Below are positions 42,401 through 55,161 of a stretch of 64,000 nt of DNA, piece after piece (within the stretch, counting starts at the first letter, position 1; each line of letters starts with the position of its first letter). Both the position numbers and the translations under genes were made by a program. The DNA is from Arthrobacter gengyunqii (GTDB taxonomy: Bacteria > Actinomycetota > Actinomycetes > Actinomycetales > Micrococcaceae). The stretch spans positions 248,001-312,000 of the forward strand of contig NZ_CP095461.1 in assembly GCF_023022985.1 (NCBI RefSeq), read 5' to 3'. The notes under the pieces were generated by a model, which saw nothing but the letters and a program-made list of their open reading frames with translations, had not been told where the DNA came from and did not search any database.

Positions 42401-43241
42401 AACCGGCTGCGGTTCCCGCCACATGGGTGCCGTGTCCGCCGCAGTCCAGCGGATTGAGGTCCGGCTTCGGGACCGGCTGGTACGTGGGGGAGGACGGGTC
42501 GGCGTCGTAGTCGTCGCCGACCAGGTCGTAGCCGCCAATGAATTTCGCGGAGTCAATGAGGCCGCTGTCGGCGGCGGGGATGCCCGGGGATGCCTGGGCT
42601 GCCTTGTAGGCCTCGGCGGTTCCCGGGCCGCCGAAATCGCTGTGGGTGTAGTCGATGCCGGTATCCAGCACGGCGATGGTGATGCCCTTGCCGGTCTGGT
42701 TCCGCTCCACCCAGGTGTTCAGGGCGCGGGTGTCGATGTCGGCGCCCTTGTTGTCGATGGTTTTCGGCACGATCTTGGTGATCCGGGCGACGTCCGCGCG
42801 TCCAGCGAGACCGCGGATCGCCTCGGCGTCGCCGACGATGGCCACGCCGGGAAGGGTGTTGGTGGTGGTGTAGAGCGTGCTGGCGTCGGCTTCGGCGGCC
42901 ACGGACTCGGCCTGGGAGGAGATGTTGCTGCGGATCTCCTCGACCAGCGGCTGGTTGAGGACCGGGTCTGCCTTGCCCTCCTTGACCGCTTCAGGCTGCG
43001 TCTGTTCAAAGGCGCCCTCGCCGGTGAACTGGACATAGACGGAGACCTGGCCGGAGGCCTCCCGCAGGCTTGACGACACCTTCTGGGTGGCGAATTTCTG
43101 GACGGCGACGCCGGCAGCAAGCCCGTCGCCGGTGGTGCCTTCGGTGGCCTGGGCGGGTACGCCCAGGGACGCCGTGAGTGCGAGCCCTGCTAGCGCGGCA
43201 GTGACGACCGCGCCGGATCTGTGATGAATGGACCTTTTCAT
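39462..43241 (-). CDS. Secreted S8 subtilisin-family serine protease
   Basis: A 1,259-residue exported protease. ATG 43241 follows AAGGAGCG; a signal peptide ends near PAQATEG. An Inhibitor_I9-like propeptide precedes the catalytic domain with Asp in AVLDTGIDYTHSDF, His in GGHGTHVAG and Ser in GTSMATPHVAG. A protease-associated insert (residues about 430-560) lies between His and Ser. Long beta-rich regions follow, then a NEW3/CARDB-like domain and a charged tail of KPGKGDDKPD repeats ending without a sortase motif. The tail may bind the wall or metal. Its upstream region lies next to the island junction. Confidence 0.94.
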   Translation of the reverse strand: MKRSIHHRSGAVVTAALAGLALTASLGVPAQATEGTTGDGLAAGVAVQKFATQKVSSSLREASGQVSVYVQFTGEGAFEQTQPEAVKEGKADPVLNQPLVEEIRSNISSQAESVAAEADASTLYTTTNTLPGVAIVGDAEAIRGLAGRADVARITKIVPKTIDNKGADIDTRALNTWVERNQTGKGITIAVLDTGIDYTHSDFGGPGTAEAYKAAQASPGIPAADSGLIDSAKFIGGYDLVGDDYDADPSSPTYQPVPKPDLNPLDCGGHGTHVAGTAAGYGTNGDGSTFGGDYSTLTAEQVNTMRIGPGSAPEAQLVGIRVFGCAGSSEVVGQALDYVLDPNGDGDFSDRAQVVNMSLGSDYAPADDPENDIVNKLTEQGILSVVASGNAGDVYDIGGSPGNAKSALTVASTIGSQVTLDRADVLAPAELAGSVAGQYSSSFNYADPALTPERLTGSVVMAPADNAFGCNPFPAGSLTGKWVWIQWEENNAFPCGSGVRFNNAQAAGATGVVLDSPRSVFDAGIGGNATIPGIQLNAASSDRLRPAAQAGTLTLRLDPSYRATATGPSGAGDTISSFSSRGLHGSNGVVKPDVAAPGSSIGSAAVGSGTGASVSSGTSMATPHVAGIAALVYAATDLNPYEVKTAIMNTATHDLLTAEGNVHAPNRVGSGRVDALDALNTKVLAYAADDQALTSVNFGVLELGKEALLQTKQVTVENKSDKPVSYDVSYLEASTMPGVVVSTTPKVSVPANGKATVDVTLSISDPAALAKTMDPAAAASQLGLARQFIADVSGRVQFAGAGTPTLRVPVYSAPKPTSEMTAGTEIAFADSEALKSTVTLQGRGLDQGTGASRYLSLVAPLVLGAQSPRLDSVKMDSMYAMDLQSVGASSTVPTIKAAGGDVQGAVVNFGVSTWANWPILGGATEIDVEIDTNGDSVPDFVTFTTRADDLDLVLASTYQLNADGTASMVDQTGANGLLGDTDSNPFDTNAVTLPVSAAALGLDLNAASAPLQYRVTTWSPYNVDDSGNSVPVDTTEYIPFDAANPALSFSGATPDALFADVDGGKLDVTRTAGNTDAKALFLHLHNATGDLSGANGDGGRAEVLPIKVPAKVVPPVTPVSPVSAVSKCTANKAEITVTVKNPGTRQADVEVTSKYGSAKVNKLNPGQSKTVVIKTKESSIKAGEVTVNLTYTGKGKPEKASYKAAFDAQDCAKPGKGDDKPGKGDDKPDKPGKGDDKPDKPGKGDDKPGKPGNGNDGRG
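39467..39606 (-). repeat. 30-bp tandem repeats encoding the protease tail
   Basis: Nearly identical 30-base units encode about four copies of KPGKGDDKPD at the C-terminus of the subtilase. The unit length keeps the reading frame, so copy number can change without breaking the protein. Confidence 0.8.
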
Positions 43242-43513
43242 AACGCTCCTTGAACATTCCACCGAGCGCTACCGGGCCATGTCCCACAGACATGCCTACC
43301 GGCTGCTGACACACTGCGGCAGCTTTTCCGTCGTGCCTCCACACCCCCGTATGGAGCGTCAGCATGCACTTGGCGGCCCCCATTGCGTTGCAGCCGTTGG
43401 GCTCACCCTAGAGGAGCAACCCCGAGGTGCATAGGTTGGTGTCGCAGGGCGCGATTTTTGTGACCAACCATTGACTGGCGGGAGAGGTGCTGATATTTTT
43501 CGGCCGCTTAAAT

Positions 43514-43541
43514 GAAGCAGGAGCCTCCAAACGGAGGCTCC
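43514..43541. terminator. Left part of an interrupted terminator hairpin
   Basis: GAAGCAGGAGCCTCC, loop AAAC, then GGAGGCTCC. The second arm stops after nine bases where the IS3-like sequence begins. The missing TGCTTC and a repeat of the arm are found at 53672-53686. Joined together they give a perfect 15-bp stem, which would serve the minus-strand kinase gene now at 53700-54545. Confidence 0.7.
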
Positions 43542-44529
43542 CCGAAAGTTGGACTGAGAAATCAGTTCTAACTTTCGGGGAGCAGTTTTATGTCTGCTGG
43601 CAGTTCATCGTCCGAGGCGCAACGCCAGAGCGCGGTAGCGTTGTTCGAAGCCGGATGGAGCGCCAGAGCCGTGTCAACGACACTAGGGGTGAGCCGCTCC
43701 GCTATAGCCCGGTTATGAGACCGATGGTTAGTTCGAGGAGGTACGACGCTGGTGGCCAAGCCAACCAAGAGAGTGTTCTCCTTTGAGTTCAAGCTCGCTG
43801 CAGTGCAGCGTTATCTCTCCGGCCAGACGAGGGCAGACCTGCCCAAGGAACTCCAGCTTTCCTCTCCGCAGCTGATCGATAAGTGGACGCGGCAGTACCG
43901 GACAGCGGGTGAAGACGGACTGCGACCGAAGCCGAAGGGTTCTACCGCGGCGAACAGGGAGTGGTGGCCCCGAACCTGCTGAACCCGCAGTTCGAAGCTG
44001 CTGCACCGAACCAAAAGCGGGTTACCGACGTGACCGAGTTCAGCGTCGGTGACCGCAAGCTCTATCTCTCCCCGGTGATGTACCTCTTCAACCGGCAAAT
44101 CATTTCGTACTCGATCGGGTTATCCCCGAATCTGGAGCCACTAACTCCTCGCTGCGCAGAGCCCTCGCCGTCCTTGAACCTGGGGCGCAGCCGCTCGTGC
44201 ATTCGGATCAGGGATTCCAATACCAGCACGTCTTGTGGCGGACGCTGCTGAAGAATGCCGGCGCGGTCCAATCAATGTCCTGCAAGGGCAACTGCTACGA
44301 CAACGCGGTGATGGAGGACTTCTTCGGACACCTCAAGGAGGAACTCTTCCACCGGGTCCGGTTCCTGAACACCGATGCCCTGACAGCACAGCTCTGTGAG
44401 TACATCCGCTGGTACAACACTGAACGCATCTCGACAAAGCTCGAGGGCCTGAGTCCGGTGCAATACCGTGCTCAGGCCCTCGCGGCCTAGCCTTTTATTT
44501 GGCCAGTCCAACTTCCGGGGACCAGTTCA
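43538..44529 (+). mobile_element. Degenerate IS3-family insertion sequence
   Basis: The left end contains TCCCCGAAAGTTGGACTG, and the right end (reverse complement) reads TCCCCGGAAGTTGGACTGG, an imperfect terminal inverted repeat. The left end also forms a second exact dyad, GCTCCCCGAAAGTT with AACTTTCGGGGAGC (43538-43583), just before the first reading frame. At about 1.0 kb it is shorter than intact members (1.2-1.5 kb) because of an internal deletion. Confidence 0.8.
43590..44490 (+). pseudogene. Broken IS3-family transposase (OrfA/OrfB remnants)
   Basis: OrfA starts at ATG 43590 (MSAGSSSSEAQRQSAVALFE) but hits a stop at 43716. Its second half resumes in another frame near 43752 (KPTKRVFSFEFKLAAVQRYL). 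OrfB lacks its first half; the catalytic core then appears in pieces as VTDVTEFSV, HSDQGFQYQ and NAVMEDFFGHLKEE, so the DDE residues survive but are split by a frameshift near 44150. The C-terminus YNTERISTKLEGLSPVQYR is intact. The element cannot move by itself. Confidence 0.85.
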
Positions 44530-44530
44530 A

Positions 44531-44798
44531 TTCGGACTGGGTCTCCCTTTTCTTTCATCCAGGAGACCCCGCTCGTCCGTGCCTTTACACCCGACGTGAT
44601 CGCCGGGGCGCGGGACTACGATCCACGCTGAGCATCACCCCGCGCCACGGCGGACCCGAACAGCGTGACGGGCGGGGCTCGGTTCTTCGTAACCGGGCCG
44701 TCCGCCATTTTTGCTCCTCCCGGTTCCGGCGGGGCGCCTAATGAACGGTGGTGCTCTGCTGCACGGGGCCGAATAGGCGGGTCAGGTCAATGTGACGC
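44531..44798. other. Gene-free stretch between the IS remnant and the DoxX promoter
   Basis: I find no convincing coding frame here. It contains a possible hairpin, GGGTCTCC with GGAGACCC near 44536-44568, and GC-rich sequence without known motifs. It may be residue from earlier insertions. Confidence 0.5.
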
Positions 44799-44827
44799 TT
44801 GACACATTTCTGCAGGGGAGTCATTCT
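44799..44827 (+). promoter_or_regulatory. Promoter of the DoxX-MFS operon
   Basis: TTGACA (44799-44804) and CATTCT (44822-44827) are 17 bases apart. The same two elements with the same spacing, and the shared word TTGACACATTT, occur upstream of the CoA-transferase gene at 47741-47769. The perfect -35 with a poor -10 suggests an activator-assisted or tightly repressed promoter. Confidence 0.65.
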
Positions 44828-44845
44828 ATGAGCAGCAAAACACCT

Positions 44846-44871
44846 GCGGACATCTGTCCGCTTGGCGGACA
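44846..44871. promoter_or_regulatory. IclR-type operator with three half-sites (DoxX promoter)
   Basis: GCGGACA-TC-TGTCCGC is a perfect dyad, followed after 3 bases by a third half-site GCGGACA in direct orientation. The site starts 18 bases after the -10 element. The same layout occurs at 47781-47806. An inverted pair plus a direct copy is the operator plan described for PcaU/PobR-type IclR proteins. Confidence 0.75.
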
Positions 44872-44928
44872 GATATCAATCGAGGTCGCCTTGCCGAGTA
44901 ACGAGCCGAAGAGCAGGAAGGCAACAAC

Positions 44929-45459
44929 ATGATGGATATCGGGGTCATCATTCTCCGCTTCATTCTTGGCGCCATCCTGCTTGCCCATGCGGGCCAGAAA
45001 CTCTTTGGCTGGTTTGGCGGCAACGGATTCAAGCGACAGGCCATCGTGTTTGAGGCCCTGGGCCTCAAGCCGGGCCAAGTGATGGTGGCAATGGCGGGGG
45101 CCATGGAACTGGCGGCGGCTTCGCTCCTGGTCCTGGGGCTTGCTACTCCGCTGGGTGCCCTGATCGGCAGCGGCACCATGCTCGTTGCCGGCCTGACCAT
45201 GCAGACGGCATCCGGGAAATTCTGGAATGCAGCCGGAGGCGGTGAATATCCCTACGTCCTCTTCGCGTTTTCTGCAGCTGTGGGAATCCTCGGTGGAGGG
45301 CGGTATTCCGTCGATCGGCTGCTGACAGACCGCTGGCCCAACCTGGCCACCTGGCTCGAACCCTTCTGGATCCACGCGCTGGCCATACCCCTGCTGGCGC
45401 TGGCGTCCGCTCTTCCGTTCGCAATGCTGGTGCGCCGCGGGCGCACCGTTTCATCCTGA
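44929..45459 (+). CDS. DoxX-family membrane protein
   Basis: A 176-residue protein with four membrane spans. The DoxX signature appears as LRFILGAILLAHAGQKLFGW at residues about 9-28, then GLKPGQVMVAMAGAMELAAA and GSGTMLVAGLTM. DoxX proteins often accompany oxidoreductases or catabolic genes, possibly as membrane redox partners or transporters, but their chemistry is unsettled. AGGAAGG precedes the ATG; ATG 44932 is an alternative start. It is the first gene behind the operator and is followed by an MFS gene after 104 bases. Confidence 0.85.
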   Translation: MMDIGVIILRFILGAILLAHAGQKLFGWFGGNGFKRQAIVFEALGLKPGQVMVAMAGAMELAAASLLVLGLATPLGALIGSGTMLVAGLTMQTASGKFWNAAGGGEYPYVLFAFSAAVGILGGGRYSVDRLLTDRWPNLATWLEPFWIHALAIPLLALASALPFAMLVRRGRTVSS

Positions 45460-45563
45460 GTCACCCTCAGGATTCTTCTTCCCCACGGGTTTCGTCTTCG
45501 ATCCGGCAGTAAAGCCGCCGTTGGCTTTCGCGGACCCACCACTCGCATACTTCAAGGAGAGAA

Positions 45564-46817
45564 ATGTCTTCGACTCACGTAGTCCCCACCCCTGAGAAAG
45601 AAGGCAGGCAAGGCTCGCTGGCACCTGCTGCCGTGGCGGTAGGTTTCGCCGTGCTTTGCCTGTCTTGGATGCTCAACGCCATGGACCGGCAGGTGTTCTA
45701 CCCGCTCCTGCCCGAAATCCGCGAGGACTTCGGCTTCTCCTTGGAGCAGTCCGGCCTGTTGGCCACCGGTTTCACCCTTGGCCTGGCCATTGCGGGCTTC
45801 CTTGCCGGGTTTGTGGTAGACCGGTTCTCCCGGAAAACCGTCATTATCGGCAGTGTCCTGGTGTACTCACTCGGCACTTTGGCTGTCCCCTTGGCTTCAG
45901 GCTTTTTGGACATGTCCGCGTACCGCATCTTCTCCGGCATCGGGGAAGGCGTACAGGCCACCGCGCTTTACTCTCTCGTCGGCTCCTTCTTCTTCCATCG
46001 CCGGGCCTTTGCCGCCGGATTCATTGGAGTCGCCTTTGGCGGCGGCATTTTCCTCGGACCCATGATCGGGGTCCCTTTCGCTGCCTCGTTCGATACCTGG
46101 CGGGCGCCCTTCTACCTCTTCGGCGGACTCGGCATCGTCATGGCCCTGCTCATCCTGGTTACAGTGTCCCGGACGATGTCGGAGGCTAAGAGCGGCCCCG
46201 GGAGCACGGCGGCAGAAGCGGACTACAGCTATGTGCCGGCCAGCGCCTACAACCGGAACACCCTGGCCTTCGGTATTGCCTGCGTCATCAGTGGCATGGT
46301 TTTCTATGGCTTCACCGGGCTCTACCCCACCTTCCTTCGCGAAGAGCTCGGTTTCGAAGCCGGGCAGGCCGCCGTGGCTGTCTCCTTGTCCGGGCTGGGC
46401 GCCATGGTTGCGCTCCTGGCCGGCTGGCTCGGGGACAAGTTCAGCCAGAAGTGGCTGCTTGCAGGCACCTTTGTTGGAACCTCGATAGTGGCGTTCCTGA
46501 TGTACACCGTCGTCTCAAGCCTGACCGGCCAGTACGTCCTGTCCTTCCTGATGGGGGCGCTTGCCAGCGGCTTCCTCTTCACCAACTGCTCCACCGCCAT
46601 GCAGCGCAGTGTCCGCCCCGAGCACGTGGGCCGGGGCCAGGGACTGTTCATGCTGACCTACTATGTTGCCGCCGCGTTCTCCGGGGTGGTCTTTGCCCGC
46701 TTGGTTGCCCTGTCCGACTGGTCGGGCGCAGGGATGTGGCAGCTGTCCATCCTGCCCCTCGTCGGCGCGGTGGTCCTGATGGCCGTCGACCCCAAGCGCA
46801 TGATTCGCCGGCTGTAA
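45564..46817 (+). CDS. Major facilitator superfamily transporter
   Basis: A 417-residue transporter with 12 predicted spans. WMLNAMDRQVFYPLLPEI and GFVVDRFSRKTVII (the loop 2-3 GxxxDRxGRR-like motif) lie in the N-terminal half, with AGWLGDKFSQKWLL as the mirrored motif in the second half. A charged Asp in helix 1 (NAMDRQ) matches carboxylate-transporting members. It is probably the uptake system for the island's growth substrate or an intermediate; no export features are seen. AAGGAGAG precedes the ATG. It is convergent with the IclR gene. Confidence 0.88.
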   Translation: MSSTHVVPTPEKEGRQGSLAPAAVAVGFAVLCLSWMLNAMDRQVFYPLLPEIREDFGFSLEQSGLLATGFTLGLAIAGFLAGFVVDRFSRKTVIIGSVLVYSLGTLAVPLASGFLDMSAYRIFSGIGEGVQATALYSLVGSFFFHRRAFAAGFIGVAFGGGIFLGPMIGVPFAASFDTWRAPFYLFGGLGIVMALLILVTVSRTMSEAKSGPGSTAAEADYSYVPASAYNRNTLAFGIACVISGMVFYGFTGLYPTFLREELGFEAGQAAVAVSLSGLGAMVALLAGWLGDKFSQKWLLAGTFVGTSIVAFLMYTVVSSLTGQYVLSFLMGALASGFLFTNCSTAMQRSVRPEHVGRGQGLFMLTYYVAAAFSGVVFARLVALSDWSGAGMWQLSILPLVGAVVLMAVDPKRMIRRL

Positions 46818-46827
46818 ACCCGGGGTC

Positions 46828-47640
46828 CTACACCGGTTTGGTTGGCATCGTTTTGGTTGGGCGCGACTGCCAGCGCGCCCAACCAGTGGTGGTTTCGGCC
46901 GCCGCAGCCTGTAGGAGCGGCAGGTACTCGCCCGTAAGGGTGTCGATGCTCGTCTCCTGCGCGTGGACGGTCACGTTCATCGAAGCGCGAACCACTCCCG
47001 CGCCGTCCGGCACCCCCACGGAAATGGAGCGCACCCCGGGCGCCAGCTCCTCGTCGGCCAGGGCCCACCCCTGGGACCGCACCTCCGCCAGGATATCCAG
47101 CACCTGGGCCTCGGCCATCGGCTCCTCTTCGGGCAGGCCCGAACGCGAGGGCTCGGCGAGTGCACGCAGAGCTTCGCCGGGCTGCAGCGCAGCGAGCAGC
47201 ACCTTGCCCTGGGAGGTTTTCATGGCGGGAAAGCGGGTGCCGATGTCCACGCGCAGGGCGATCAGCTTGGGCACGGCAACCCGTGCCACGTAGACGATGT
47301 CGGATCCATCCAGCTGGGCCATGGACGATGACTCGCCCGTCCGCTCAACCAGTTGCTCCAGATGGGGACGGGCCATATCCCACAGCCCGAGGGCGCCCAC
47401 ATAAGCCATGCCGAGCTCAAGCACCTTGGGGGTCAGCGAGTGGAAGCCCTGTTCAGCCCGTGCATACCCCAGCTCCTGCAGCGTGAGCAGGATCCGGCGG
47501 GCGGTTGGCCGGGCCAAACCGGTCGCTTGGGATACCTCAGCCAGGCTCATACGCGGATGGTCCGCCGAAAAACAACGGACCACGTCTAACCCGCGGGCGA
47601 GTGCCTCAATGAAGTCAGGCCCCTGTCCTCGCTGGACCAT
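46828..47640 (-). CDS. IclR-family transcriptional regulator
   Basis: A 270-residue regulator from ATG 47640 (MVQRGQGPDFIEALARGLDV), behind AAGGGA; the frame is open up to 47766 but across the operator region. The N-terminal helix-turn-helix runs through MSLAEVSQATGLARPTARR. The C-terminal IclR effector domain has SSSMAQLDGSDIVYVARV and GVPDGAGVVRASMNV. The sequence is close to PcaR/PcaU/PobR proteins, which sense aromatic acids or beta-ketoadipate-type compounds. The three operators around it probably define its regulon, including its own promoter. Confidence 0.9.
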   Translation of the reverse strand: MVQRGQGPDFIEALARGLDVVRCFSADHPRMSLAEVSQATGLARPTARRILLTLQELGYARAEQGFHSLTPKVLELGMAYVGALGLWDMARPHLEQLVERTGESSSMAQLDGSDIVYVARVAVPKLIALRVDIGTRFPAMKTSQGKVLLAALQPGEALRALAEPSRSGLPEEEPMAEAQVLDILAEVRSQGWALADEELAPGVRSISVGVPDGAGVVRASMNVTVHAQETSIDTLTGEYLPLLQAAAAETTTGWARWQSRPTKTMPTKPV

Positions 47641-47716
47641 GTTATTCCCTTTCGTGGGTGATAGGTCAACGTCAAAGCGTCCCCGGCACCATTGTAGGGA
47701 CCTCCAGCTGTCTGGT

Positions 47717-47730
47717 CGGACAACTGTCCG
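47717..47730. promoter_or_regulatory. IclR-type operator near the regulator gene
   Basis: CGGACA-AC-TGTCCG, the same dyad with 2-base spacer as in the other two sites. It lies 77 bases upstream of the iclR start and 10 bases upstream of the -35 element of the CoA-transferase promoter. It is placed for autoregulation and/or activation. A weaker half-site, CCAGACA, adjoins it on the minus strand. Confidence 0.7.
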
Positions 47731-47740
47731 GCAGTGACCC

Positions 47741-47769
47741 TTGACACATTTTCCCTTTACCCACATTCT
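47741..47769 (+). promoter_or_regulatory. Promoter of the CoA-transferase operon
   Basis: TTGACA (47741-47746) and CATTCT (47764-47769), spacing 17, matching the DoxX promoter. The operator at 47781 starts 11 bases after the -10 element. Confidence 0.65.
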
Positions 47770-47780
47770 TTATGTGAGAT

Positions 47781-47806
47781 CCGGACACTTGTCCGGCAAG
47801 CGGACA
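47781..47806. promoter_or_regulatory. IclR-type operator with three half-sites (CoA-transferase promoter)
   Basis: CCGGACA-CT-TGTCCGG plus, after 3 bases, a direct half-site GCGGACA. The geometry is identical to the site at 44846-44871. The overlap with the start of transcription suggests repression in the absence of the inducer. Confidence 0.75.
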
Positions 47807-47840
47807 CACCAATGAAGCAATGTCGCTGTGAGAGGACCGA

Positions 47841-49061
47841 GTGAAAACTCCAAACGAAGCGCATGGACCGGGCAGCCCCGACAGGCTGCCACTCTCCGGG
47901 ATCGTCATCGCCGATTTCTCCCGGGTCCTGGCGGGCCCGTACGCCACTATGCTTCTGGCCGACATGGGCGCCGAAGTGATCAAGGTCGAAAGTCCAGCCG
48001 GCGACGATACGCGTTCATGGGTTCCCCCGGTCCGCGACGACGGTGTCTCCACGTACTACACGGCGGTCAACCGCAACAAGAAGTCGGTGGTCCTGGATTT
48101 CAAGGACGCTGATGACCTGGCAGCAGCACAGGCACTGGCCGGGCGTGCCGACGTCATCATCGAAAACTTCAAACCCGGGGGCCTCAAGCGCTTTGGACTT
48201 GATTACGGATCCGTGCGGGAGCACAACCCCGGAGTTATCTACTGCTCGATCAGCGGATTCGGCACGGCGGAAGGGGCGGCCCTTCCCGGGTATGACCTGA
48301 TTGTCCAGGCCATGAGCGGCCTGATGAGCCTGACCGGAGATCCCGAGGGGGAACCCTTCCGTGCCGGAATCAGCGTTTTCGACGTGATGGCCGGCCTGCA
48401 TTCGAGTATTGGAATCCTGGCCGCCCTGCGCCATCGCGACCAGACCGGCGAAGGACAGAACATTGAGACGTCCCTGATGGCCTCCGCCATGAGCGGTCTG
48501 GTCAACCAGACAACGGCCTACGTGGCCGGGGGCGTCACCCCGTTCCGGATGGGCAATGCGCATCCGAGCCTGTTCCCCTACGAAGCACTTCCCACCGCCG
48601 ACGACGACTTGATCATCGCGGCTGGCAACACGAATCAGTTCCGGAGGCTTTGCCACGTGCTGGACATCCCGGCAGTGGCCGATGACCCGCGTTTTGCCGA
48701 AAACGGCGACCGGACAGCCAACCGCGAGCAGCTGCGTCCGTTGCTGGTGGAACGGCTGCAGACCCGCGGCGCGGGCGAATGGTTCGACCTGCTCAACGAG
48801 GCCGGAGTTCCGAACGGCCCAATCAACAGCATCGCTCAAGGAGTGGAGTACGCGAAAAAGCTGGGCCTGAACCCCGTGACAACAGCCGGAACCGGCACCT
48901 CAGCGGTACCCGTGGTCAGGAATCCCATCACGTTCTCGGCTACCCCGGCCCGCTACGTCCTCTCGCCGCCACGGCTCGGAGAACATACGGAAGAGATCAA
49001 GGCATGGCTGGCAGCACGCGTTGCCGGCGGCGGAAACGACTCCACGAAGGGCAAGGCGTGA
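47841..49061 (+). CDS. CaiB/BaiF class III CoA-transferase
   Basis: A 406-residue enzyme moving CoA between carboxylic acids. It starts at GTG 47841 after AGAGGA. Family features: GIVIADFSRVLAGPYATMLL, LADMGAEVIKVESP, VVLDFKDADDL, and the catalytic Asp in LPGYDLIVQAMSGLMSLTG. It probably activates a di- or tricarboxylate formed after ring cleavage. The citryl-CoA-lyase-like gene next to it overlaps by 4 bases, which suggests consecutive steps (CoA activation, then C-C cleavage). Confidence 0.93.
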   Translation: MKTPNEAHGPGSPDRLPLSGIVIADFSRVLAGPYATMLLADMGAEVIKVESPAGDDTRSWVPPVRDDGVSTYYTAVNRNKKSVVLDFKDADDLAAAQALAGRADVIIENFKPGGLKRFGLDYGSVREHNPGVIYCSISGFGTAEGAALPGYDLIVQAMSGLMSLTGDPEGEPFRAGISVFDVMAGLHSSIGILAALRHRDQTGEGQNIETSLMASAMSGLVNQTTAYVAGGVTPFRMGNAHPSLFPYEALPTADDDLIIAAGNTNQFRRLCHVLDIPAVADDPRFAENGDRTANREQLRPLLVERLQTRGAGEWFDLLNEAGVPNGPINSIAQGVEYAKKLGLNPVTTAGTGTSAVPVVRNPITFSATPARYVLSPPRLGEHTEEIKAWLAARVAGGGNDSTKGKA

Positions 49062-49873
49062 GCACCTCGACAGAAAACCAAACCCCCCGTTTTCCCACCT
49101 CGCTGGGCACATCCACTTCCACGAAGATCAGCCTCCTCGGACAGGATCTGGCCCAGGACCTGATGGGAAAGGTCAGTTTTGGCGAGCTGGCCTTTTGGCT
49201 GGTGGCGATGCGGCGACCAAGCTCCGGAGAGCTCAGGGTCTTTGAATCGGTGCTGGTGGCCCTGGCCGACCATGGTTTCACGCCCACAGCCATAGCCGCC
49301 CGCCTCACCTACCTCAGCGCTCCTGATTCCATGCAGGGGGCAATGGCCGCGGGCCTGCTCGGCGGCGGTTCGCGCTTCCTCGGAGTGACCGAGGACTGCG
49401 CCCAATTCCTCGCCGAGAAGCTTGCCGAGCATGAAAGTCCCCTGCCCGAGACGGATGCGGAATGGGATGAGATGGCAGCGGCAGCCATCGAGTCGCAGCG
49501 GGCTAAGGGAAAGTTCGTTCCCGGGCTCGGCCACCCGAATCATAAGGACGGCGATCCCCGCACGCCCGTGCTGATTGGCATCGCCACGGAAGAAGGCCTC
49601 CGGGGCCCCCACATCAAACTGTTTGAAGCCGTCGGGCGCATGAGCGGGAAAGTCCTGGGACGAAAGCTGCCCCTCAACGGTGCCGGCGTCTGCGGAGCGG
49701 CCCTCGCTGACTTGGGTCTCCCGCCGGATCTGCTGCGCGGCTTTGCCCTGCTGGCCCGTGCAGCTGGGCTGCTCGGCCAGATCGCTGAAGAGCGGCGCAA
49801 CCCGATTGCCAATGACATCTACATGGCCGTGGACCGCAACGCGGGCTACGTTGCCCCCAACCTGGACAGCTAA
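49058..49873 (+). CDS. Citryl-CoA lyase-like (small citrate synthase fold) protein
   Basis: A 271-residue citrate-synthase-fold protein, starting at GTG 49058 inside the previous stop. FVPGLGHPNHKDGDPRTPVL matches the catalytic GxGHxxYKxxDPR region with its His. The C-terminal LARAAGLLGQIAEERRNPIA matches the citryl-CoA lyase/ACLY end. At the position of the ACLY catalytic Asp (NVDG motif) it reads NGAGVCG, so the Asp appears lost. It should cleave or form a 3-hydroxy-3-carboxyacyl-CoA, but chemistry different from citryl-CoA cleavage is possible. Confidence 0.82.
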   Translation: MSTSTENQTPRFPTSLGTSTSTKISLLGQDLAQDLMGKVSFGELAFWLVAMRRPSSGELRVFESVLVALADHGFTPTAIAARLTYLSAPDSMQGAMAAGLLGGGSRFLGVTEDCAQFLAEKLAEHESPLPETDAEWDEMAAAAIESQRAKGKFVPGLGHPNHKDGDPRTPVLIGIATEEGLRGPHIKLFEAVGRMSGKVLGRKLPLNGAGVCGAALADLGLPPDLLRGFALLARAAGLLGQIAEERRNPIANDIYMAVDRNAGYVAPNLDS

Positions 49874-49883
49874 GGAGAACACC

Positions 49884-50828
49884 GTGGCGGAATTGACGGC
49901 CGTGCTGGCCAGCACGCACCACCCCTTTTATCTCAAGGCGACCACCGACGAGTCTGACCAGCGGATGCCGCAGGCGGATGAGTGGAAAAACAAGGTGGAG
50001 GCCTACCGTGAAACCTTGACTGCAGCGGAGCCGGACATCCTGATAATGGTTGGCGCGGACCATTTCCACCAGTTTTTCCTGGACAACTACCCCACGTTCC
50101 TCATCGGCAAGCAGGAAAAGTATGACGCCACGTACTACAACGAGGAACGCGAATTCGGCCTGCCCAAATACGTCCTGGACGGCGATGTGGCGCTGTCCAA
50201 CTTTATGCACCAGGGGCTGATGGATGAGGGTTTTGATTTCTCCTTCAGCCACGAATTGAAGATTGACCACTCCATCATCTGCCCGATCATCACGGTCAGG
50301 CCGGACGCGGACCTTCCCATAGTTCCGATCTACACCAATATCTTTGCCCCGCCGCTGCCGTCCCCGAAGCGCTTCTGGGACCTGGGGAGGGCAATCCGGA
50401 AAGTCATCGATGCCTACCCAACGGATAAGAAGATCGCAGCCATCGGCACCGGCCATTTGTCCCTCGAGCTGGGAGGGCCCCGCATGTTCGGCGAGCACGG
50501 TCCGGACCCGGAGTTCGACGCGCAGGCGATCGAATGGCTTTCCTCCGGAAATATCGACGCGATTCTGGAAAACGTCACCCATGAATCCATGTCCACGGCA
50601 GGTAACGCGACCCACGGATTCATGGACCTTATTCTCATGATGGGCATCGCCGGAGGCGAAAACGCTGACTACGTTGACCAGCTTGACCTTTACCACACCC
50701 GCGAAATGTTCATGACTTGGTACCCGAACAGGACCCAGTCCCAGTTGGAAGCTGCCCAGCAGTCCGCCCGTCGCTCGGGAGCAACACTTGGACCTTTGCT
50801 GGCCGCACCGGAAGGAGCACCGGCATGA
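49884..50828 (+). CDS. LigB-family extradiol dioxygenase-like protein (beta subunit)
   Basis: A 314-residue protein starting at GTG 49884, 6 bases after AAGGAG. It has the class III fold pattern: LASTHHPF and VGADHFHQFF supply the two N-terminal metal His. KIDHSIICPIITV and VPIYTNIFAPPLP occupy the core. However, GTGHLSLELGG stands where protocatechuate 4,5-dioxygenase has GTGG-S-H-Q, so the acid/base His is displaced, and AGNATHGFMDL stands where the third ligand Glu is expected. It either uses shifted residues or has another activity. The LigA-type subunit gene follows at once. Confidence 0.82.
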   Translation: MAELTAVLASTHHPFYLKATTDESDQRMPQADEWKNKVEAYRETLTAAEPDILIMVGADHFHQFFLDNYPTFLIGKQEKYDATYYNEEREFGLPKYVLDGDVALSNFMHQGLMDEGFDFSFSHELKIDHSIICPIITVRPDADLPIVPIYTNIFAPPLPSPKRFWDLGRAIRKVIDAYPTDKKIAAIGTGHLSLELGGPRMFGEHGPDPEFDAQAIEWLSSGNIDAILENVTHESMSTAGNATHGFMDLILMMGIAGGENADYVDQLDLYHTREMFMTWYPNRTQSQLEAAQQSARRSGATLGPLLAAPEGAPA

Positions 50829-51190
50829 GCACTTACTACGTCAACAAGTTCCTCTACACCGTTGACCGTGACCCGGAATGGGTGGCCCGGTACAAGGAGG
50901 ACCCGGCAGGAACCATCAAGCGATGGGAAACGGAGGTCGGATCCTGGCTGAACAGCTCGGAGAAGACATCCTGGCTTTCCTTCACGGACGAAGAGCGCCG
51001 GGCCCTGGAGACCTACGACTATGTCTGGCTGTTCGAAGCCGGTGCACATTTTTTCCTCTACCTGACCCTCTTTATCGGCATTTTCGAGGACGACTACACC
51101 CAGACGAACGGACCCTTGTCCTATCAGCGCGAATGGGCAAGGAACCTCTCTCACTGGACCGGCAAGACCTACCCGACGGTGGCACTCTGA
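50825..51190 (+). CDS. LigA-type extradiol dioxygenase small subunit
   Basis: A 121-residue helical protein whose ATG overlaps the LigB stop. It shows the LigA domain pattern: LSFTDEERRALETYDYVWLF then EAGAHFFLYLTLFIG, matching protocatechuate 4,5-dioxygenase alpha subunits, which cap the active site of the beta subunit. The strict gene order beta then alpha, with a 4-base overlap, implies assembly of a 1:1 complex. Confidence 0.85.
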   Translation: MSTYYVNKFLYTVDRDPEWVARYKEDPAGTIKRWETEVGSWLNSSEKTSWLSFTDEERRALETYDYVWLFEAGAHFFLYLTLFIGIFEDDYTQTNGPLSYQREWARNLSHWTGKTYPTVAL

Positions 51191-51281
51191 CCTGTTGTTC
51201 CACCGTCCGGATCGCTCCGAACGCTCCACCCCCACACCAGCCCCGCCGTGCGGCACGCCCGGTAAAGATTCAAGGAGAAAA

Positions 51282-52730
51282 ATGGTCCATCTTCAGTTGC
51301 CTGCAGACAACCAGCCAATCGTTTTCCGCAATGGCACAGTTCTGTCGATGGACCCGAGCCATCGAGTGCTGTCCGACTGCGACGTCTTGGTCATCGGCGA
51401 CACCATCAAGGAAATCGGCCCCCGCCTCGAGGTGCCCGAAGGCACCTTTGAAATTGATGCCTCCGGCGGCATCGTCATGCCGGGGATGATCGACACCCAC
51501 CGGCACATGTGGCAGACCACCATGCGCGGCTACGGCGCCGACTGGACGCTGAGCCAATACTTTGTCTGGTATTACCTCGAACATGGAATGAAATTCCGTC
51601 CCGAAGATATTGCCACCGGAAACCTCCTTTCCGCGTACGACGCCCTCGACGCCGGCGTGACTACCAGCGTCGACTGGTCACACGGTTTGAGCACCTTGGA
51701 CCACGCCGAAGCCGCCGTTGACGCGCTCGAAGGAACCGGCGGACGTTTCGTCTTCGCGCCCGGGAACATCTTCGCCGGACCAAATGAATGGTCCACCACC
51801 CCGGAGTTCAAGGACTTCGTCGCCCGGCGGAATCCGCGGTCGGACATGTTCAAGTTCCAGCTCGCCTTCGACGTCACGGGTGACCCGTCCTTCCCGGAGA
51901 AGGCCGCCTTCGAAGCCGCGCGGGAACTCGACCTCTCCGTGACCACCCACGCCGGTGTTTGGGGCGCCACCAACGACGACGGCGTCCGCCTGATGCACGA
52001 GCACGGGTTCATGACCCCAGGCACTGTCTACGTTCATGCCGCGACTCTGAGCAACGATTCCTACCAGCGCATCGCGGCCACCGGAGGGACGGTGTCGCTG
52101 TCCACGGAAAGCGAGCAGAGCTGCGGCCAGGGCTACCCGCCGTCGTGGATCCTTCGGCAGCACAACGTGCCCATGTCCCTGTCAATCGACACGAGCGTGT
52201 GGTTCAGCAGCGATCTCTTTACCGCCATGCGCACTACGCTCGGCGCGGACCGTTCCTACGAGCACATGGCGGCCCATGAGAAGGGCGAGACAGTCACCCA
52301 TTCGGCCCTGCGTGCAGAGCAGGTTGTTGGGTGGTCCACCCACGGCGGTGCCCACGCGCTGGGACTGGATCACGCCGTCGGCCGCCTGGAAGTTGGGAAA
52401 AAGGCCGACATTGTCCTGTTGAAAAACGAAAACTCACCCGGAACCTTCCCTGTCCTCCATCCATACGGCCACGTGGCACTTCAAGCCGGCCGGGGCGATG
52501 TTCAGACCGTCCTGGTCAACGGCCGCGTGGTGAAGCATGACCACCGGCTGGTCGGCGTGGATATGAAGGCCGTCCAGGGCAGGGTTGCGGAAACGGTGGA
52601 ATACCTTCAGTCCGCGCTTGGTGCCGACGCGTGGGCCAAGGGCATGAACCCGGACATCCCGGAAGCGCGGATCCTGGACAACCCCTACATGTACACCGAC
52701 TACCACAGCGCCAATACTCGCAGCGTCTAG
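51282..52730 (+). CDS. ATZ/TRZ-family amidohydrolase
   Basis: A 482-residue TIM-barrel metal-dependent hydrolase, starting at ATG 51282 after AAGGAGAAA. The N-terminal composite sheet leads to MPGMIDTHRHMWQTT with the HxH metal pair. DLSVTTHAGVWG gives the third His, VYVHAATLSN the fourth, and the Asp is in LSIDTSVWFSS. KKADIVLLKN is the typical C-terminal strand. Relatives deaminate or dechlorinate heterocycles (atrazine, guanine, cytosine). It is the last gene of the operon, with a 91-base gap, so the growth substrate may carry an amine, amide or heterocyclic ring. Confidence 0.9.
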   Translation: MVHLQLPADNQPIVFRNGTVLSMDPSHRVLSDCDVLVIGDTIKEIGPRLEVPEGTFEIDASGGIVMPGMIDTHRHMWQTTMRGYGADWTLSQYFVWYYLEHGMKFRPEDIATGNLLSAYDALDAGVTTSVDWSHGLSTLDHAEAAVDALEGTGGRFVFAPGNIFAGPNEWSTTPEFKDFVARRNPRSDMFKFQLAFDVTGDPSFPEKAAFEAARELDLSVTTHAGVWGATNDDGVRLMHEHGFMTPGTVYVHAATLSNDSYQRIAATGGTVSLSTESEQSCGQGYPPSWILRQHNVPMSLSIDTSVWFSSDLFTAMRTTLGADRSYEHMAAHEKGETVTHSALRAEQVVGWSTHGGAHALGLDHAVGRLEVGKKADIVLLKNENSPGTFPVLHPYGHVALQAGRGDVQTVLVNGRVVKHDHRLVGVDMKAVQGRVAETVEYLQSALGADAWAKGMNPDIPEARILDNPYMYTDYHSANTRSV

Positions 52731-52781
52731 GCGGCGCTTCCTTCTCGGTCAGTCGACGCCTGTCCGGCATCAACTCTGCCG

Positions 52782-52825
52782 GGGCGGGGACCGGTTCTTT
52801 GGAACCGGTCCCCGCCCTTTTATTT
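52782..52825 (+). terminator. Strong intrinsic terminator of the catabolic operon
   Basis: A perfect 16-bp stem (GGGCGGGGACCGGTTC with its complement), loop TTTG, followed by TTTTATTT. It starts 51 bases after the amidohydrolase stop. Confidence 0.95.
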
Positions 52826-53094
52826 ATGACGCATCCAAACAGTTCCACCGGCTTCCACCGGAGTGAATTGCTTCAGAGCCTTCCGCTCACGGTCTGGGTC
52901 GGCCTAGCTTGTTGGGGCAGGGCATCGTTTTGCAGAGGATGTCGCCTTGCTTCCATGCGAGTCATAAACAAGCCTCATCTAAGGAATGCAAGGGTGACAA
53001 GGTGACACCCCTGGGAAATCGAACGCTGCATAACAGTTGTATGGCCGTCTGCTAAGAGGTAGGCCGCCGGGCCAGTTCCCGATGAGGTGAAACC
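52826..53094. other. Gene-free stretch downstream of the operon terminator
   Basis: No coding frame that I trust runs here. It includes short direct repeats (TTCCACCGG twice near 52841-52860; GGTGACA twice near 52994-53006). It presumably contains the promoter of the broken gene that follows. Confidence 0.5.
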
Positions 53095-53487
53095 ATGGCG
53101 CACGAACCAGAATCTTCGCTTCCTAAGCCTTCCTCTCCCTGACACTCCCAAACGACCGTTTTCGACTTGGATCGTCCTCGCCATTGCTGTAGTTCTCTTG
53201 GCGGTCTTCGCAGATACCGGCCTCATGGGGCTGGCCGTCTGGCTCGTACTCATGGGGGTCGGTGTATGTCTAACGGTTGCCTACGCGTTGCTCCTTCGAC
53301 GGCAGACGTGGGCTCGTGTTGCAGATGGCGGGAAGCGCCAGTTGCTCGCCGTTGGGGGAGGACTTCTCGTCGTGGGGTCTGTACTTGCCGCTATGGCTGC
53401 TCCTCCGGGATCAGGTACAGCGGACAGCTGATGATGATCAGTCACCCAGCCCGAGCCCGACTCCTCCCTCGGCTTCCCCGACTCCTC
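53095..53487 (+). pseudogene. Frameshifted small membrane-protein gene cut by the IS fragment
   Basis: A strong GAGGTGA site precedes ATG 53095, which reads MAHEPESSLPKPSSP and stops at 53140. One base further on, the frame continues DTPKRPFSTWIVLAIAVVLL with three membrane spans to 53431, so a single extra C in TCTCCC breaks it. A Ser/Pro-rich stretch in another frame follows (SPSPSPTPPSASPTPPP), then IS3 sequence. It resembles the N-terminus of actinobacterial excalibur-type membrane proteins. The first break could also be a sequencing error. Confidence 0.7.
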
Positions 53488-53669
53488 CACCGGGTTCGGT
53501 TCCTGAACACCGACGCCCTGACAGCACAGCTCAGTGAATACATCCGCCGGTACAACACCGAACGCATCTCGACAAAGCTCGAGGGCCTGAGCCCGGTGCA
53601 ATACCGTGCTCAGGCCCTCGCGGCCTAGCCTTTTATTTGGCCAGTCCAAATTTCAGGGACCAGTTCAAG
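53488..53669 (+). mobile_element. IS3-family right-end fragment
   Basis: It encodes the last 46 residues of an OrfB (HRVRFLNTDALTAQLSEYIR onward), about 95% identical to the copy at 44350-44490. The IS right end follows (TTTTATTTGGCCAGTCCAAA, then CAGGGACCAGTTCAA). Nothing upstream of the C-terminus remains. Same orientation as the left IS3 remnant, which would allow recombination between them. Confidence 0.88.
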
Positions 53670-53671
53670 AC

Positions 53672-53686
53672 GGAGGCTCCTGCTTC
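53672..53686. terminator. Right arm of the interrupted terminator
   Basis: GGAGGCTCCTGCTTC is the exact complement of GAAGCAGGAGCCTCC at 43514-43528. It lies 13 bases after the end of the kinase gene on the minus strand. Without its partner arm nearby, termination of the kinase transcript may now be poor, and reading into the island from the right is possible. Confidence 0.7.
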
Positions 53687-53699
53687 GGCTTTTCGAGCC

Positions 53700-54545
53700 C
53701 TACAGGGCGGGGCCGTTGCCGGCATTGCCCTGCCACAGGGCGTCGAACGGGGCGTTGGAGGAAACCCGGTTGCGGATGCCCTCGGTGACGAAAGCCTTTG
53801 CGGTCTTCGCGGCTTCGAGCGGCGTGGCGCCCTTGGCCAGTTCGGCCGTGATGGCTGCCGCAAGCGTGCAGCCGGCGCCGCTCACCGCAACGTCGCCGAC
53901 CTTGGGTGCCCGCAGCACCTCCATGGTCTCACCGTCATAGAACACGTCCACGGCGTCGTCGCCTGCCAGCCGCACTCCGCCCTTGGCGAGAACCACGGCC
54001 CCGGAAGCTTCGTGGATGCGCCGGGCGGCGTCCTGCAGGTCCTCGACAGTGTCGATGGAGTCCATGCCGGACAGGGACATCGATTCAAAGTGGTTGGGTG
54101 TCACGAAGGTGGCCAGCGGCAGGATCTGCGCCTTGAGTGCCCGGTCCGTGTCCAGGGCGGCTCCCGGTTCCTGGCCCTTGCAGATCAGCACCGGATCCAG
54201 CACGATGTTGGTCCATTCCTGGCTCTGGAGGGCCTTGGCCACGGCGTCGATCGTGGCGGGCGTTCCCAGCATGCCGAGCTTGACGGTGGTCAGGTCATAC
54301 GCGGTCTGGATGGCCTCAAGCTGGTCGCTGATGACCTGGGAATCCACCGGGACGAAACGGTGGCTCCAGTTGTCCTTCGGATCGAAGGACACGATGCAGG
54401 TCAGGGCAGCGATCCCGTAGGTTCCGAGTTCCTGGAACGTTTTCAGGTCGGCCTGGGCGCCGGCGCCGCCGGTAGCTTCGGAGCCGGCGATGGTCAGGGT
54501 GACGGCCGGGGCAGCTGTTCCGGCAGAGTGTGTGTTAGCAGACAT
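53700..54545 (-). CDS. Hydroxymethylpyrimidine/pyridoxal kinase family protein
   Basis: A 281-residue ribokinase-fold enzyme that phosphorylates pyridoxal/pyridoxine or HMP. It starts MSANTHSAGTAAP at ATG 54545. GSEATGGAGAQADLKTF matches the GSDPSGGAGIQADLKTF motif. The anion-hole/catalytic region is VAVSGAGCTLAAAI (Asp of GxGD is replaced by Ala-Gly-Cys, as in the PdxK/ThiD-like subgroup), and LDPVLICKGQ is conserved. No thiamine genes adjoin, so the pyridoxal kinase role is slightly favoured. Its terminator seems to have been disrupted by the island. Confidence 0.85.
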   Translation of the reverse strand: MSANTHSAGTAAPAVTLTIAGSEATGGAGAQADLKTFQELGTYGIAALTCIVSFDPKDNWSHRFVPVDSQVISDQLEAIQTAYDLTTVKLGMLGTPATIDAVAKALQSQEWTNIVLDPVLICKGQEPGAALDTDRALKAQILPLATFVTPNHFESMSLSGMDSIDTVEDLQDAARRIHEASGAVVLAKGGVRLAGDDAVDVFYDGETMEVLRAPKVGDVAVSGAGCTLAAAITAELAKGATPLEAAKTAKAFVTEGIRNRVSSNAPFDALWQGNAGNGPAL

Positions 54546-54642
54546 GAGTCCATCTTCCACCCAAGCGAGCATCGGTGCCACTGGGGTTGGCCCCGCGCGC
54601 CGGGCGGGCCAGGGCGGGAAAACCGGTTCGCCGGCGGCAGCG

Positions 54643-55161
54643 CTAGGCGCGGGCAAACGGCCAGACGGCGGCCCGGCCCGCGGCCATGGAGACTCCGATG
54701 GCTGCGCCCATGAGCAGAGGTACCACCACTGCCTGGACGCTCAGGCCGATGATGACCCAGCCGAGCAGCGCCGGCACGACGAAGAAGGCCAGGACATGGA
54801 GGCCCTGGCTGAGGACGCCGCGCAGCGACCAGCCCAAGATCAGGGCGACCGGCAGGGCGGTGAACAGGCCGAGCCCGGCGGCATAGAAAGCGGCGACAAT
54901 GACAGTCCAGACATAGCCCCAGAAATCGCGGGACGTTCCCCATCCCACCACTGTGGTGGCGATTACCGCCAGGACAAGGCAGCCCACGACATACCCCAGT
55001 GCTACGGCCAGCGGGCCGGGTGCAGCGTACGGATGCCGCGGCGGAGTATCGGTAGGCGGAGTATCGGCAGGCAAAGTATCGGCAGACGCAGTTTCGCCGG
55101 CCAAGACGTCGGCGGGTATCAATGCGGGCGGAAGCGCGTCGTCGTCGCCTTTGTCAGTCAT
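54643..55161 (-). CDS. Uncharacterised membrane protein with repetitive N-terminus
   Basis: A 172-residue protein. The first 50 residues are polar and Pro/Asp/Thr-rich, with repeats such as LPADTPPTDTPP, encoded by near-identical 15-base units around 55040-55090. About four membrane spans follow. It overlaps the TetR gene by 8 bases, so it is probably controlled with it. No function can be assigned. Confidence 0.65.
   Translation of the reverse strand: MTDKGDDDALPPALIPADVLAGETASADTLPADTPPTDTPPRHPYAAPGPLAVALGYVVGCLVLAVIATTVVGWGTSRDFWGYVWTVIVAAFYAAGLGLFTALPVALILGWSLRGVLSQGLHVLAFFVVPALLGWVIIGLSVQAVVVPLLMGAAIGVSMAAGRAAVWPFARA

Follow-up and report, generated by a model that had tools for sequence, protein, structure and literature searches.

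The stretch of DNA considered here (the window) comprises 64,000 nucleotides of the 3,691,056-bp chromosome of Arthrobacter gengyunqii (NCBI RefSeq assembly GCF_023022985.1, contig NZ_CP095461.1, positions 248,001 to 312,000). The segment at 43530-53669 is very probably an island that has, at its two edges, directly oriented copies of an IS3-family insertion sequence (IS) whose clade prefers the loops of terminator-type hairpins and similar palindromes. The island carries a catabolic operon and separates the two halves of one hairpin, which lies between a subtilase gene and the 3′ end of a phosphomethylpyrimidine kinase gene. The interest of the observation lies in the target habit of this IS3 clade, which is broadly spread among actinobacteria. 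That habit accounts for the split hairpin: the catabolic block sits inside a hairpin because the IS group at its edges often inserts into such hairpin loops.

The hairpin halves and a short direct repeat define the edges of the island. A preliminary description of the window had placed two complementary 15-mers and an 11-bp repeat at these edges, and both are confirmed. The sequence GAAGCAGGAGCCTCC at 43514-43528 has its exact complement at 53672-53686, with no other exact match on either strand in the whole window, and the 11-bp ACGGAGGCTCC occurs exactly at 43531-43541 and 53670-53680 only. Paired across the island, the two halves have a stem score of 16. The same description had proposed that deletion of the intervening DNA would restore a perfect stem with an AAAC loop. 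The single hairpin stands, since it is uninterrupted in a relative (G019), in which the loop is AGA; this, and not AAAC, was probably the original loop of the hairpin in the window as well.

The operon is missing from this site in that relative, and the hairpin that is split here is intact there. In G019 the same two genes flank the unbroken sequence GAAGCAGGAGCCTCC-CAGAG-GGAGGCTCCTGCTTC, which is a near-perfect hairpin with a folding energy of -40.7 kcal/mol on one strand (z = -7.6) and -37.9 kcal/mol on the other (z = -7.5). The two flanks of the island align to a single continuous place in this genome. Because the hairpin is uninterrupted between the same genes in G019, the match of the two 15-mers in the window is not due to chance. 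The kinase search gave a match in 34 of 39 genomes, and the DNA next to the kinase was inspected at 24 loci of the same genus; hairpins of other sequence were seen near the kinase end at several further inspected loci, by eye.

The distribution of the operon points in the same direction. The central 9 kb of the island was searched in 29 genomes of the genus, with ten candidates scored in each, and in the wider family with two candidates per genome, so that absence of the operon from any genome is only as good as this limited scoring. Among the 29 genus genomes, the operon is found outside its own genome (G000) only in G022, at 74-77% identity with a third piece at 68%, on a different contig from the kinase. 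The remaining matches in the genus are short or cover part of a single gene, and operon genes occur at 70-80% identity in other genera of the family. The idea that no mobile event took place, with the halves matching by chance or an ancestral operon being lost elsewhere, could draw on the variability of the locus, as the subtilase was not found within about 1.5 kb beside the kinase at nine of the 24 same-genus loci. It is nevertheless hardly credible, given the empty hairpin in G019, an operon that is not found or is located elsewhere in the genus, and IS remnants at both edges. The earlier proposal that a mobile mechanism brought a catabolic segment into a single hairpin that was already there is supported, and the empty site that it predicted exists in a relative, G019, which joins both flanks as an uninterrupted hairpin.

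Comparison with G019 also bears on the history of the left flank. Along much of the window the two genomes align at 71-92% identity, mostly near 80%, and the segments at 2-8 kb and 19-30 kb do not align in place. The region at 40.0-43.5 kb is 96.7-98.3% identical, in a tract that ends at the hairpin; from the right arm outward, identity is high for some tens of bases and then drops. Since this subtilase tract of 97-98% lies in a background of about 80%, the subtilase side was probably exchanged between lineages. The segment 40000-43541 looks like a recent exchange tract with G019, bounded by the terminator and ending at or just past the hairpin.

IS3-family sequence lies just inside each edge, as had been described. 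The left copy (43537-44529) and the 3′ remnant on the right (53481-53667) are the sole substantial matches to the element in their own genome, other matches being only 39-47 bp long. Both are fragments with an rve_2 domain. Relative to the copy in G006, the left IS has a gap of about 440 bp at about 43939. The G006 copy is 1437 bp long with both ends complete, starting with TGAACTGCTCCCCG and ending with CAGTTCA; its OrfA frame is interrupted. Relatives in the Micrococcaceae have the terminal inverted repeats TGAACTG...CAGTTCA, and TG and CA termini were required by the searches for element ends; in the window the right end alone is complete. In the relative on Arthrobacter plasmid p232, OrfB matches the NCBI IS3 model NF033516 with 326.6 bits (cut-off 160) and has an rve integrase core. 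D131, D191 and E227 are invariant in three relatives and have DD(35)E spacing, from which a catalytic role for these residues may be predicted. In general features the clade resembles the rest of the IS3 family, with a helix-turn-helix in OrfA, a DD(35)E integrase core in OrfB, TG...CA ends, 3-bp duplications and a length of about 1.44 kb. Its distinctive feature is a marked preference for hairpin loops.

This preference is based on two sets of related copies. The family search covered 395 genomes drawn from the larger family, with two candidates scored per genome, and at least 124 of them had a match. The family set contains 29 of 30 loci, the window's own locus being excluded, and 39 regions chosen among the matches listed, 68 in all; 24 of the 68 have no recognisable end pair, and L092 was dropped as a false pair. 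The named-genome set was taken from the best 80 of at least 504 relatives, of which 75 were used after exclusion of five cut by contig ends, and 52 of the 75 passed the end criteria. Removal of duplicates in either orientation left 87 distinct sites with recognisable ends, all in Actinomycetota. Ends in the named-genome set were picked by inverted repeat with a bonus for duplication and those in the family set without this bonus; the pairing score never entered into this choice. Flanks were counted as paired when the stem score across the element was 10 or more.

The flanks pair across the element at 59 of the 87 sites, including 35 of 42 in the Micrococcaceae set. Among the controls, 6.4% of mispaired flanks come up to the threshold, as do 4.0% of random positions in 63 of the loci. 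Three other multi-copy IS types in the same genus, with 14 copies in all, give no paired site; the third of these types (three copies) has a right end that is uncertain by some bases, and shifts of 5, 10 and 20 still give a best score of 8. Seven further loci include four new ones, from G012 and G004, all of which pair, together with one duplicate and two without an end pair. Two of three copies on named plasmids pair, with scores of 15 and 14 (the paired examples include those on Arthrobacter p232 and pA2H2), and the third has no recognised end pair. Paired copies are also present in Nocardiopsis, Kribbella, Mycolicibacterium, Rothia and Corynebacterium, and some copies in Nocardiopsis and Corynebacterium are unpaired. 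A 3-bp duplication is found at 56 of the 87 sites, a figure inflated by the choice of ends, and at 25 of 42 in the set chosen without the duplication bonus. A separate observation concerns the multi-copy elements L277-L282 and L283-L287, which are about 1.09 kb long and most of which have CTAG at either end; they match the IS3 model weakly and lie outside hairpins.

The paired targets have little sequence in common. At the 59 paired sites, base preference reaches a maximum of 0.47 bits at any position, and this lack of a strong consensus suggests that structure or composition, rather than sequence, guides the choice. T makes up at least about one third of the bases just after the right arm in 36 of the 59 paired sites, and A is equally frequent before the left arm in 33 of 58. 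The neighbouring genes are convergent at 26, in tandem at 12, divergent at one and unclear at one of 40 paired sites; the corresponding numbers for 23 unpaired sites are 11, six, two and four. In this test 24 of the 87 sites were excluded because of short flanks, the simple open-frame rule may favour 3′ ends, and there is no outside control. By this rough rule, the element is mostly at the 3′ ends of genes whether or not the pairing threshold is reached. Based on the flanking T/A content and the gene context, many of the target hairpins appear to be terminators. Some copies in Pseudarthrobacter and Arthrobacter (L173, L174, L181, L183 and L135) lie, as judged by eye, within repeated GCTCTNTCAC-type palindromes, possibly a repeat of these two genera that resembles repetitive extragenic palindromes (REP). 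The preference is therefore for hairpins, and not strictly for terminators.

The two junctions of the island differ in how well they preserve the original insertion. The right junction, CAGTTCA|AGA|CGGAGGC, fits insertion into a loop such as the AGA of G019, accompanied by a normal 3-bp duplication. The left junction reads GCCTCC-AAAC-GGAGGCTCC|CCGAAAG. When compared with its relatives, the left IS end has no TGAACT and is joined to the hairpin arm at GCTCC, which is common to both. The expected earlier sequence on this side, GGAGC-CTCC-(loop)-TGAACT-GCTCC, is a quasi-palindrome. Template switching within it would yield the perfect palindrome observed, and illegitimate joining at GCTCC, with an intact hairpin allele as partner, would lead to the same result. 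Judged from these ends, the 11-bp repeat is a secondary product of an altered left IS end, and this would be so under either template switching or illegitimate joining. The preliminary description had instead regarded the repeat as too long for standard IS3 transposition and the mechanism as perhaps unusual. A target duplication of this kind is not supported by the relatives, where duplications are mostly of 3 bp, or by the AGA at the right junction. An exact direct repeat at both edges is indeed what a long target duplication from unusual transposition would leave. Such a duplication, however, needs mismatched element ends, with a complete CAGTTCA followed by AG at the right edge and no TGAACT at the left, and relatives duplicate mostly 3 bp; this explanation is very improbable, and an 11-bp target duplication was rejected on account of these ends.

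A sequence of events consistent with these features can be proposed. The kinase terminator would have received an IS end in its AGA loop and, with it, the catabolic operon. The operon would have come within an IS-operon-IS composite, or on an IS-bearing molecule through recombination with an IS that the loop already contained. The left end would have changed later, through one of the two processes named above (template switching in GGAGC...GCTCC, or illegitimate joining), and this change would have given the 11-bp repeat. With neither IS copy intact today, the island can probably no longer move.

Two routes of arrival are about equally possible for the window. In a composite transposon, two IS copies in the terminators of the donor operon would have moved jointly into the recipient hairpin. 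This route, to which slightly less than an even chance can be given, agrees with direct IS copies at both edges, with outer flanks that are the halves of one hairpin (score 16), and with the left IS, whose inner end adjoins an apparent half of a foreign terminator. That half, ATTCGGACTGGGTCTCCCTTTTCTTTC, and the flank on the left side of the left IS are unpaired (score 5), which points to an arrival of the 3′ part of this IS together with foreign DNA. A search of the window's own genome for a matching left half gave only the site itself as an exact match, and near matches numbered six, as compared with nine for a backwards control. A composite transposon is harder to reconcile with copies that are just 94% identical, and its second donor terminator is not visible because the right copy has lost its inner flank, probably together with part of the gene at 53087-53480. 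Like composite transposons, the island has its cargo between two direct IS copies; it departs from them in that its IS copies are broken and 6% different, its movement as a unit is putative, and its duplication can be read on one side only.

The other route, recombination between a circular IS-bearing molecule with the operon and an IS resident in the kinase terminator, likewise falls a little below even odds. Here the 6% difference between the copies would be that of a resident and an incoming IS. A parallel is found in another genus of the same family, where a siderophore-uptake operon in G127 (a binding protein, two FecCD permeases, an ABC ATPase and a siderophore-interacting protein) is framed by a related IS in two direct copies (L246, G127:C1:294300-303300) that are identical in 1419 of 1439 aligned columns. 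In these copies the best pairing is between the two inner flanks, with a score of 11, against scores of 8 and 5 for each copy's own two flanks and 4 for the outer ones, as integration of a circle predicts. The score of 11 is modest, however, being reached by 3.5% of mispaired flanks, the outer flanks in G127 are unpaired, and the inner flank that would be diagnostic in the window has been lost. An integrase island of the tRNA type was also considered and rejected, as no tRNA was found in the window and no integrase, apart from the IS remnants, among the island proteins scanned.

Several points weigh against the account of a hairpin-seeking IS and its cargo. Pairing stays below the threshold at 28 of the 87 sites, and gene context does not separate paired from unpaired sites. 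The left end has no TGAACTG, hence the AGA duplication is visible on the right side only, and the two IS copies of the window differ by 6%. The empty site does not come from a close sister strain, since G019 is about 80% identical over most aligned parts outside the 97-98% tract. The search for a donor that has this operon between the same boundaries had no success: in 390 genomes searched with the DoxX/MFS part (E up to 1e-30), matches came, besides G000, only from G263 and G396, in which the gene order is different and the first 370 bases of the query have no match.

Other mobile elements are known to choose hairpins. Group IIC introns are retroelements that land at terminator hairpins, beside the stem. 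They share the terminator hairpin as a landing site with the present element, which is of the DDE type and inserts in the loop. The IS3-family elements IS1397 and ISKpn1, together with ISPsy8, insert into REP or palindromic unit (PU) sequences, which are extragenic, and each goes with one repeated palindrome family per host (PMC1525189). The present clade is like them in inserting inside palindromes (59 of 87 sites; 0 of 14 in the other IS types). It differs in that its hairpins have no strong common sequence, many are terminator-like, and its hosts are spread across many genera of Actinomycetota. Its targets do not belong to one REP/PU sequence family, though some copies lie in a repeated palindrome. 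No report of terminator-targeting IS3 elements was recognised in the open-licence papers searched.

A preference for terminator loops does little harm to genes and leads to landing where operons end, and it would explain the neat entry of a catabolic operon between two genes. A broader proposal can be put forward tentatively, at rather worse than even odds: an IS3 clade across Actinomycetota may recognise terminator-type hairpins by structure rather than by sequence, with pairs of its copies bracketing and carrying whole operons, and the catabolic island and the siderophore operon of G127 may be two of its products. Copy pairs would tend to bracket whole operons because the clade inserts at the ends of transcription units, and complete operons would be carried and dropped between genes with none broken. 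Structure-guided target choice by an IS3 transposase becomes directly testable, and the findings suggest that terminators may be hot spots of gene-block exchange in Actinomycetota.

Table. Positions of the hairpin, the insertion sequences, the flanking genes and the island's cargo in the window.
Feature	Position	Strand	Basis or remark
Hairpin, left half	43514..43528	+	Exact match; uninterrupted in G019
Hairpin, right half	53672..53686	+	Exact match to complement of left half
AA and second right-arm copy ACGGAGGCTCC, replacing IS terminal TGAACT	43529..43541	+	Compared with IS ends of relatives; last five bases GCTCC common to arm and IS
AGA, probable 3-bp target duplication, equal to loop of empty G019 hairpin	53668..53670	+	
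Left IS3-family element, broken, without terminal TGAACT and about 440 internal bp	43537..44529	+	Comparison with relatives; rve_2 in 44197-44487
Right IS remnant (187 bp of the 3′ part), right end CAGTTCA complete	53481..53667	+	176/187 identical to left IS
ATTCGGACTGGGTCTCCCTTTTCTTTC, resembling right half of a different terminator (by eye)	44530..44556	+	Adjoins inner end of left IS
Subtilase gene, left of site	39462..43262	-	PF00082
Phosphomethylpyrimidine kinase, 3′ end toward hairpin	53700..54656	-	PF08543
DoxX-family membrane protein	44929..45459	+	PF07681
MFS transporter	45564..46817	+	PF07690
IclR-type regulator, PcaR/PcaU/PobR-like below model cut-off	46828..47766	-	PF09339, PF01614; TIGR02431 249.9 bits, cut-off 284.75
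Class III CoA-transferase	47841..49061	+	PF02515
Citryl-CoA-lyase-like protein (listed open reading frame; true start probably later)	48779..49873	+	NF004868 286.7 bits, cut-off 193
LigB-type extradiol dioxygenase (listed open reading frame; true start probably later)	49680..50828	+	PF02900
Small protein, no family match; probable true start near 50826	50717..51190	+	
Amidohydrolase (listed open reading frame; true start probably later)	51195..52730	+	PF01979
Probable gene fragment entering IS remnant	53087..53480	+	Open frames; frame 53167-53628 ends in rve_2; frame from 53087 without family match

The predicted products of the cargo genes suggest that an aromatic compound is degraded by cleavage of its ring and by CoA-linked steps. 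After the last gene of the operon, at 52780-52825, there is a strong terminator-like hairpin, GGGGCGGGGACCGGTTC...GAACCGGTCCCCGCCC, followed by TTTTATTT. Related catabolic genes are present at G396:C5:1282524-1289228 in a different order, in which the genes from the CoA-transferase to LigB are followed by those for DoxX, the amidohydrolase and the MFS transporter.

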